This document shows, piece after piece, positions 5,037 to 15,468 of a DNA stretch of 15,468 bases. The position numbers and the translations under genes were made by a program. Numbering within the stretch: the first letter of the stretch is position 1; the number at the start of each line of letters is the position of its first letter. Location of the stretch: the NCBI GenBank assembly GCA_011049365.1, contig DSBD01000070.1:1-15468 (forward strand), written 5' to 3'. Source of the DNA: Candidatus Vogelbacteria bacterium (GTDB lineage: Bacteria > Patescibacteriota > Minisyncoccia > Phycocordibacterales > XYD1-FULL-46-19). The notes under the pieces are model-generated. The model searched no databases and was not told where the DNA came from. It was given only the letters and a program-made list of their open reading frames with translations.

Positions 5037-5219
5037 AATAATATTTTTACTTAAATTATTAACTATTTTTCCCGGACCGAACAACCCGGAAACGGCTCTT
5101 GGCCGATTTTTTAAAATTACTTGAAACCCTTTTTTAATCTCTCGGCTCGGAAATACGAAAATAAGCTTTCATATCACTCCCCCTTCTACGTCGCCGGCAA
5201 AAAAACACACCTTTAGTGT
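5037..5219 (-). other. Long structured 5' leader of tuf
   Basis: If transcription starts near 5219, tuf has a leader of about 180 nt. In minus-strand order it holds three parts. The first is a ~54-nt element (5141-5194) that recurs near the right end of the window. The second is a hairpin CGGC-CAAGA-GCCG (5093-5105). The third is a CCGG...CCGG stem region (about 5071-5090) close to the start codon. No open reading frame with family resemblance lies within it. Such a leader suggests post-transcriptional control of EF-Tu or a stability element. That is an inference; I do not recognise a known riboswitch or r-protein binding site. Confidence 0.5.
5141..5194 (-). repeat. Dispersed structured element, copy 1 (in tuf leader)
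   Basis: Read on the minus strand the element begins GCGACGTAGA, continues with GAGTGATATGAAA, forms an imperfect hairpin and ends ATTTCCGAGCCGAG. The copy at 15381-15435 shares the first 10 and last 14 bases exactly and GAGTGA.ATGAAA in between, while the hairpin interior differs in sequence yet still pairs. In this copy the hairpin pairs GATAT with GTATTTC and GAAA with TTTC, with one mismatch and a small bulge. Conserved unpaired flanks around a variable stem fit a structured RNA. A mobile REP-like repeat is the alternative. Confidence 0.6.
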
Positions 5220-14764: not shown

Positions 14765-15184
14765 ATGGAAAAGGAATGTCTATTTTGCCAAATAGCATCC
14801 GGTCAAATACCGGCTGATAAAGTCTATGAAGATGAAACTTGGTTGGCTTTTTTAGATATTAGACCGGTTAATAAAGGTCATCTACTTTTAATTCCCAAGG
14901 AACATTATCGCAATATTTTTGATTTGTCAGATGAAGCCTTAGATAAGCTCGGACGGCCCCTAGCTAAATTGGCTCAAGCGGTTAAAAAAGCTTCTCAAGC
15001 TGAAGGTGTTAATATTATTATGAATAATGAACCGGCCGCTGGTCAGATAATCTTTCATGCTCACTGGCATATTGTCCCCCGTTTTTCCGATGATGGCCAT
15101 CGTCATTGGGCTGGAAGAAATGATGTTTCTAAAGACGAATTAGCCGAAATGGCTGAAAAAATAAAAGGAATTCTAGGAGAGTAG
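14765..15184 (+). CDS. HIT (histidine triad) family nucleotide hydrolase/transferase
   Basis: The 139-residue protein begins MEKECLFCQIASGQIPADKVYEDE, the usual HIT/HINT opening with the CxxC pair (C5, C8) of zinc-binding members. RPVNKGHLLLIPKEHYRNIFDL follows. The catalytic triad is FHAHWHIVPR (H98, H100, H102), giving the HxHxHxx signature. Family members hydrolyse adenosine phosphoramidates or dinucleoside polyphosphates; which substrate applies cannot be told. Length and residues are normal, with an extra RFSDDGHRHWAGRNDV segment after the triad. The gene is divergent from recJ with 85 nt between starts and probably leaderless. It stands alone on the plus strand, and no clear terminator is seen before the repeats that follow. 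Confidence 0.93.
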   Translation: MEKECLFCQIASGQIPADKVYEDETWLAFLDIRPVNKGHLLLIPKEHYRNIFDLSDEALDKLGRPLAKLAQAVKKASQAEGVNIIMNNEPAAGQIIFHAHWHIVPRFSDDGHRHWAGRNDVSKDELAEMAEKIKGILGE

Positions 15185-15242
15185 ATCACTCTAATCTTAT
15201 ATTTCATAACTTAATTTGTCTAATCTTGCTTTTTTTTGATTT

Positions 15243-15330
15243 TTGATACTATAGTATCAATATTTATACTAATTTTGAGACTATAGTATCAATATTCGTA
15301 CTAAAATTGAGATTAATATAATAATATCAA
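15243..15330. repeat. 32-bp tandem repeats built on an 18-bp palindrome
   Basis: Three units start at 15243, 15275 and 15307, exactly 32 bp apart. Unit one begins TTGATACTATAGTATCAA, a perfect palindrome. Unit two has one change (TTGAGACTATAGTATCAA). Unit three is decayed (TTGAGA...ATATCAA). After the palindrome, units one and two share AATATT and TACTAA. The 32-bp step, about three helical turns, would place bound dimers on one face of the DNA. On the plus strand TTGATA (15243-15248), 16 nt and TATACT (15265-15270) also read as a promoter overlapping the first palindrome. Confidence 0.7.
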
Positions 15331-15374
15331 CAAAAAAAATATAGTCCCTCGGGACAAACCCTGAAGGACTATAT
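15331..15374 (-). terminator. Intrinsic terminator for a gene beyond the right edge
   Basis: On the minus strand ATATAGTCC (15366-15374) pairs perfectly with GGACTATAT (15339-15347), nine pairs, with a further short inner stem of the CAGGG/TCCCG type. An unbroken run of eight T residues then follows (plus-strand A run at 15332-15339, whose last base is also in the stem). This is a strong intrinsic terminator for minus-strand transcription entering from the right, convergent with the HIT gene. Its core sequence recurs at 15445-15468. Confidence 0.7.
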
Positions 15375-15468
15375 TAGCTCCTCGGCTCGGAAATGAAAAT
15401 GTAAAAACATTTTCATTTCACTCACTCTACGTCGCTAATATATGCCCTCGGGACAAACCCTGAAGGAC
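15346..15468. repeat. 24-bp direct repeat, 99 bp apart, ending at the window edge
   Basis: The 24 bases at 15346-15369 recur identically at 15445-15468, where the window ends. Each copy is self-complementary in part (CCCTCGGG and GGGACAAACCC). Between them lies the second copy of the dispersed structured element. The period of 99 bp may be the start of a longer tandem array. Ending exactly on a repeated sequence is also what an assembly break would look like. Confidence 0.65.
15370..15442 (-). repeat. Dispersed structured element, copy 2, with nested stems
   Basis: The outer arms TATATTAGC (15370-15378) and GCTAATATA (15434-15442) pair perfectly over 9 bp. The inner arms GAAATGAAAATGT (15390-15402) and ACATTTTCATTTC (15407-15419) pair over 13 bp around AAAA. 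Between the two stems lies a large internal loop, whose sequences on the minus strand (GACGTAGAGTGAGT and CGAGCCGAGGA) contain the parts conserved with the copy at 5141-5194 in the tuf leader. Both copies have the same orientation. Here it would lie in the 3' region of an unseen minus-strand transcript, just before its terminator. Confidence 0.6.

Follow-up and report, generated by a model that had tools for sequence, protein, structure and literature searches.

The window analysed here, a stretch of 15,468 nucleotides from a draft genome of Candidatus Vogelbacteria (contig DSBD01000070.1 of assembly GCA_011049365.1), carries two copies of a palindromic sequence on its minus strand. The question raised by this locus is whether the palindrome serves its neighbouring genes as a structured RNA or has spread between genes as a mobile repeat. 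The first-pass annotation had described it as an undescribed RNA motif and had named a REP/MITE-like mobile palindrome as the main alternative.

One intact and one decayed copy of a covarying hairpin

Both copies lie where the annotation had placed them, on the minus strand at 15.4 kb and at 5.1 kb, the latter with its conserved core at 5141-5194 (Table 1). In the 15.4-kb copy, sequence and fold agree on a 9-bp outer stem (TATATTAGC/GCTAATATA) around the conserved bases and on a 13-bp inner stem (GAAATGAAAATGT/ACATTTTCATTTC), as had been described; the MFE of this copy is -28.3 kcal/mol (z -6.4) and was matched by none of 200 shuffles. The conserved ends are common to both copies. Aligned to the covariance model R1, the 5.1-kb copy, whose stem had been described as interrupted, has a wholly broken outer stem and has lost some inner pairs. 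R1 was built from alignment A2, which contains the 15.4-kb copy and not the 5.1-kb one, and scores them at 86.3 bits (E 3.4e-24) and 37.7 bits (E 1.9e-9), respectively. Because the 5.1-kb copy reaches only 37.7 bits with its outer stem broken and folds no better than shuffled sequence (z +0.8, equalled by 158 of 200 shuffles), the window holds one intact and one decayed member of the same family.

Table 1. Hairpin features of the window, in positions counted from its first nucleotide.
Feature	Position	Strand	Basis
H1, intact hairpin unit	15370..15442	-	sequence, fold, R1 86.3 bits, 16/16 modelled pairs covary
H1 outer stem arms	15434-15442 and 15370-15378	-	
H1 conserved loop strands (GACGTAGAGTGAGT and CGAGCCGAGGA)	15420-15433 and 15379-15389	-	
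H1 inner stem arms	15407-15419 and 15390-15402	-	
H1 apical loop	15403-15406	-	
H2, second hairpin after H1 (TATAGTCC..GGACTATA)	15340..15373	-	sequence
T8 run after H2	15332..15339	-	sequence
Partial second H2 copy, cut by contig end	15443..15468	-	sequence
Decayed H1 copy, spacer between fusA-like and tuf-like genes	5131..5201	-	sequence, R1 37.7 bits
Terminator-like hairpin ACACTAAAGGTGT + T7, directly upstream of decayed copy	5199..5219	-	sequence (putative terminator)

The intact hairpin, H1, is followed by a second one, H2, whose first 4 bases are also part of the H1 outer stem; folded together, the two reach -44.8 kcal/mol (z -7.0). From its sequence, H2 with its T8 run looks like an intrinsic terminator. 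Since the contig breaks off in a cut copy of H2 that precedes H1, the window appears to stop inside a tandem H2-H1-H2 array. Downstream of the gene next to the 15.4-kb copy, which is convergent with it and was read by eye as a HIT-family protein, lies that copy itself (the fusA, tuf and HIT-family names used here were all read by eye from ORFs). Between the HIT-like gene and the hairpin, at 15241-15312, there is also a tandem repeat with a 32-base unit (2.2 copies, 87% matches).

The two copies belong to a larger set in the source genome. The union of three pattern searches over the draft (435,211 bases in 73 contigs, 83% complete) yielded 33 copies, of which contig ends truncate 3. The pattern ATTTCCGAGCCGAG has 12 exact matches in this 435-kb genome versus 0 for the reversed-pattern control, and the left half of the element matches 25 times with up to 3 mismatches versus 0 for its control, which places the repeat far beyond chance. 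Four kinds of inner stem occur among these copies, some of which stand in tandem (for example at L026 and L029). Contigs C2, C3, C8, C11, C14, C19, C23, C36, C48 and C52 of this draft have a copy no more than about 85 bases from an end, and three contigs (C14, C23 and C48) cut through one. As contigs end at or in copies, assembly probably fails at the repeat, and the genome probably has more copies than were counted.

Covariation was assessed in two alignments. A2 comprises 35 of the 68 copies listed, all 35 of 69-74 nt, and leaves aside 17 further copies from the source genome and 16 others (15 longer or shorter ones, plus L043). In these 35 chosen copies all 16 base pairs show two-sided compensatory change and 93.6% of cells are paired; none of 500 shuffles reached A2 on any measure, and sliding the pairing partner by 1-3 columns lowered pairing to 37-56%. 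A3, an alignment fitted to the model, draws on 26 loci for 28 matches, all different from the A2 rows, with 95.5% of cells paired; 6 of 500 shuffles reached its number of pairs with two-sided change and none reached the other measures. The conserved loop and variable paired stem seen by the annotation are thus borne out by compensatory changes in both A2 and A3, and the lack of such changes, which it had named as evidence against a structured element, was not what we found (16 of 16 pairs). The sequence of the inner stem varies widely between genomes. In A2 the core CGACGTAGAGYGAG / CGAGCCGAGGAG does not vary, a constancy that is partly by construction, since both A2 and a wider set of 145 copies were found with core patterns (with up to 2 substitutions for the wider set). 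Matches to R1 are not bound to the exact core; elsewhere in the phylum some of them retain it, and others have a looser version, roughly GAGYGAG ... CGAGC.

The mismatches mark the given strand as the one whose fold matters. Among 121 distinct stems we counted 39 G·T versus 11 A·C mismatches (p 9e-5, with related stems not independent) and 23 others; if neither strand were favoured, transitions should yield G·T and A·C equally often, so the excess of G·T indicates that one strand folds. This asymmetry would also fit RNA, as well as single-stranded DNA. Covariation this strong exceeds what a REP family would lead one to expect, and it could reflect selection for a function.

When the H2 forms of the 145 copies were sorted by regular expression, 113 stayed unclassified, and no conclusion is drawn from this sorting. 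A tail similar to AAGACGAAGTGCTTTTAT recurs after H1 in L043, L045, L064, L067, L132, L134 and L163 and could form a small hairpin.

Distribution across Patescibacteria and placement between genes

The exact pattern was found in 5 of 60 other genomes, all five from other families of the same order, and in 0 of the 15 genomes of the source's own family. The covariance-model search over further genomes, which the annotation had proposed as a check, reached more widely: with the source genome included, R1 matches 93 of 297 genomes and 66 of 166 genera of the order at E≤0.001, among them two other genomes of the source's family, and 31 of 379 genomes drawn from the phylum at E≤1e-5. Copy counts per genome from the two surveys, which took in up to 16 and up to 13 candidates respectively, are lower bounds. 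The distribution is patchy even inside genera, for example in genus g76, and the surveyed Patescibacteria genomes measure about 0.4 to 1.5 Mb. In genome_contigs, the exact pattern matches at least 115 stretches, many of them chance matches lacking a palindrome; 34 palindromic copies in 33 loci were obtained from the matches listed. Among the 23 of these loci listed with an organism name, 21 have names that we take to be those of Patescibacteria lineages and 2 are given simply as 'bacterium'.

The annotation's remark that the element is no riboswitch class it recognised agrees with Rfam, of which no family matches the window at gathering level; in 14900-15468 no hit at E≤10 approached gathering level. 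The searches made also gave no match to a known repeat family. An origin in phages or plasmids was rejected: the exact pattern hits 28 IMG/VR stretches, of which those listed had stems of 9 pairs or fewer, and blastn against phage and plasmid records gave no match. In the open-access literature we found no title on such repeats among the papers listed and no occurrence of the core sequence as text, which leaves its absence from print unproven.

The copies lie mostly between genes, with 123 of 139 loci outside mechanical ORFs of at least 80 aa and 16 inside. A downstream gene no more than 600 bases away shares the strand of the copy in 54 loci and has the opposite one in 51 (p 0.85), which is the near-random orientation that the annotation had named as speaking against an RNA; an upstream gene within the same distance is co-oriented in 66 loci versus 43 (p 0.035). 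The spacers are co-directional in 59 cases (34 ++ and 25 --), convergent in 23 and divergent in 12. When 466 proteins encoded near 123 copies were clustered, no recurrent partner gene was found, the largest cluster covering 5 loci, and the clusters listed read by eye mostly as housekeeping genes. A Y1-like transposase gene lies near copies in 3 loci, 323 to 1192 bases away.

The reading as an undescribed RNA motif thus holds in part: the hairpin is undescribed and shows the compensatory change of a structured RNA, but a tie to a transcript is not supported; the hairpin has unrelated neighbours and lacks the consistent orientation and gene association that would go with such a role. The link to the tuf leader that the annotation had drawn is not supported either: the 5.1-kb copy is decayed and sits behind the terminator-like hairpin and T-run between the fusA-like and tuf-like genes. 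A leader RNA of tuf or of other genes was rejected in view of the orientation of the copies, the decay of the 5.1-kb copy and the lack of a gene association. What the surveys define is an undescribed hairpin family, dispersed between genes in many tiny Patescibacteria.

Boundaries of the unit and differences between sister genomes

To locate the ends of the unit we used the flanks of 118 of the 145 copies, the rest being without context, containing N or standing behind another copy. Upstream of the outer stem, TTA occupies positions -7 to -5 in 107-112 of the 118 copies per position and is followed by T (104) or C (9); from -11 outwards the preference is near background, which gives a sharp left boundary at TTAY. 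Across all 145 copies, near-repeats from the source genome included, this fourth flank letter pairs with an internal base of the element (T-A 121, C-G 11, other 13). TTTAC is also present downstream, at the apparent 3′ end, in 8 of the 12 C-type copies listed (L079, L080, L091, L135, L143, L162, L208 and L411), as judged by eye without a control or a T-type count. Terminator-like hairpins (MFE ≤ -8) are moderately enriched upstream: 38 of the 118 copies have one, and four control windows gave 21-27 of 118.

We then compared seven genomes of one genus (f56/g69), with G218 as the reference. By blast, 17 copies with their surroundings from six sister genomes (among at least 41 matches there) were set against 14 element sites of G218, and none of the 17 shares a site with those 14. 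The elements match one another; 9 of the 17 sister copies have no other match to the G218 sites, and for the other 8 the flank matches imply a distance of at least 567 bases between the place of the sister copy and the nearest G218 copy. At one site, a spacer between convergent genes with a terminator-like hairpin, the element is present in G293 right after the T-run, while G218, G138 and G182 have a terminator-like hairpin and no element, and G070 carries a sequence that is similar to the second hairpin (G248 and G271 fall outside this comparison). At another site the element is present in G218 and absent from five sisters (G248 excluded owing to a contig end). These empty-site alignments are between species at ~70% nucleotide identity, too low to place the insertion bases or a target duplication.

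G218 also has its rpmH-like and dnaA-like genes separated, with an element on each side (L279, 3430-3900 and 15850-16450); five sisters keep the two genes adjacent without an element.

Competing explanations and candidate enzymes

We think it probable that these copies form a short, non-autonomous family of mobile hairpins in Patescibacteria, REP/MITE-like in behaviour, because a covarying fold occurs here together with many copies, tandem arrays, patchiness, intergenic placement, site differences between sisters and a TTAY boundary. The annotation's alternative of a REP/MITE-like palindrome therefore fits better than an RNA tied to a transcript, although two features of REPs, a GTAG at the foot of the hairpin and a flanking RAYT gene, were not found in what was examined. 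The unit starts at a TTTAY site, and one strand folds into an outer stem (4 bp in the model, up to 9 bp in the window), the asymmetric internal loop CGACGTAGAGYGAG / CGAGCCGAGGAG and, above it, an inner stem of 12-13 bp with a largely free sequence; a second hairpin or hairpin cluster often follows H1, with TTTAY or TATAT as the apparent end of the unit. A trans-acting enzyme may read the internal loop while the strand is single and folded, and may move the unit into T-rich TTTAY sites, much as happens with IS200/IS605 and REP elements. Some H2 hairpins with their T-runs could terminate transcription; this or any other transcriptional effect would be a side effect of the landing site. A mechanism on single-stranded DNA (HUH-like) is our best inference, since an enzyme that reads the internal loop on single-stranded DNA explains the strong constraint on the fold most easily, as with TnpA_REP, which reads REPs as single strands (PMC8266576).

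The main rival is a structured RNA (a 3′-UTR element, a processing site or a small RNA) that multiplied, with selection acting on the hairpin and its internal loop. We regard this as possible, if doubtful: the compensatory changes in A2 and A3 and the tolerance of G·U over A·C on one strand suit it well, as do the terminator-like H2 with its T-run and the co-orientation of the upstream gene (66 of 109), such as a transcribed 3′ element would give, but the even split of downstream genes, the unrelated neighbours, the tandem arrays, the patchiness within genera such as g76 and the presence or absence of the element at orthologous sites do not.

A variant of the mobile reading, which we consider unlikely, is a new class of self-guided single-strand hairpin that would recognise its target by base pairing, through the internal base and the variable letter of TTTAY, and whose enzyme would be one not yet linked to known transposase families; sequence immediately following H1 is able to pair with the TTTAY of either side, left or right.

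MITEs of the IS200/IS605 type are non-autonomous ends of Y1 HUH elements whose hairpins are read on one strand, with a short T-rich target beside the left end, of which TTAC and TTAT kinds exist. The Patescibacteria element resembles them in the T-rich flank directly 5′ of its left hairpin (TTA, then T or C) and in the possible internal pairing with the target letter, for which a guide role is putative. It differs in that no autonomous Y1 copy with the same ends was found in the Y1 loci examined, and in that both of its ends seem to carry TTTAY. Other arrayed or modular repeats offer looser parallels, namely attC, which forms arrays of imperfect palindromes, and BOX and ERIC, which are modular intergenic repeats; the arrays recall the former and the modular intergenic layout the latter, but the attC core sequences were not seen in the element.

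A classical REP moved by a RAYT (TnpA_REP) transposase is quite improbable. With GTAG REPs, as portrayed in PMC3733652, PMC8266576 and PMC6006769, the element shares an intergenic, dispersed, palindromic and clustered occurrence and spacers that are mostly co-directional or convergent, a distribution that PMC3733652 gives for REPs; in these sources E. coli REPs are recognised as single strands folded into stems with conserved mismatches. A REP is, however, a palindrome of about 20-40 bp (PMC3733652), with a GTAG or GTGG on the 5′ side of a fully paired basal stem, at 0-2 nt from it (PMC6006769). The unit described here is at least 73 nt long, with an internal loop of 14+11 nt, an outer stem and a free, covarying inner stem; a GTAG is present in its conserved loop, but 7 nt from the foot of the inner stem and enclosed by the outer stem, and it is lost in distant members such as L414, L416 and L419. 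REPs usually have more than 100 copies per genome (PMC2817692); the copies counted here number tens at most, with 33 in the incomplete source draft and, in other genomes, lower bounds from up to 16 candidates each. The CGTC-tagged REPs of PMC3733652 are similar as palindromic repeats with no dedicated transposase gene alongside, and differ from the element in length, in the internal loop and in the CGTC tag, which the foot of its folded strand lacks.

The survey for Y1 transposases bears on the same point. PF01797 matches 182 of 297 genomes of the order, 68 of 93 carriers of the hairpin versus 114 of 204 non-carriers (odds ratio 2.1 without correction for descent, p 0.005), an association that leans towards a Y1 partner. 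Against this, no PF01797 match was found in 25 of the 93 carriers, including G115 (at least 15 copies) and G053 (at least 11 copies), and in 51 Y1 loci, a part of the total, R1 detected a strong copy at L238 and a weak one of 25 bits at L278, with no others. RAYT genes were not flanked by the element in the loci examined. Of 20 Y1 loci that were fetched, six (L261, L262, L266, L272, L276 and L278, all from Patescibacteria) have GGGGWSAS motifs on both sides of the Y1 gene, as a text motif without a chance control, and the element core lies within the stretch in one (L278). The flanking-motif layout resembles the TIRYT arrangement described in PMC3733652. In view of the PF01797 survey, the R1 search of Y1 loci, the repeats round three Y1 genes and the GGGGWSAS motifs, a RAYT partner is unsupported despite the association. 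Among 10 high-copy carriers, IS110 (PF01548) matched in none and reverse transcriptase (PF00078) in one, and both were rejected as partners. The search for a mobilising gene, by Y1, IS110, reverse transcriptase and neighbour clustering, thus found none.

In the source genome the sole Y1 match is a fragment with a stop, on L038 (C28). This contig, which also bears a 392-aa ORF that reads by eye as OmpP1/FadL-like, probably contaminates the bin, as Patescibacteria would not be expected to encode an outer-membrane protein.

That the hairpins are a family of bidirectional or intrinsic terminators kept at gene ends is highly improbable: convergent spacers outnumber divergent ones (23 versus 12) and H2 has a T-run in the window, but the H1 internal loop has no evident role in termination, no T-run follows H1 in the window, three sister species keep the terminator-like hairpin of the convergent site without the element, and hairpins of this kind already stand upstream of 38 of 118 copies.

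If the hairpin is mobile, its occurrence in about a third of the order genomes searched, at species-specific sites, would point to a shared mobile system, and the repeat would account for some broken assemblies. The hairpin offers a bait for finding the nuclease that would read it. Covarying hairpins in Patescibacteria genomes are not automatically riboswitches. It is also of note that G218 carries a second dispersed repeat, at about 11790-11970 of L287, which has matches in all 6 of the 6 sister genomes searched.
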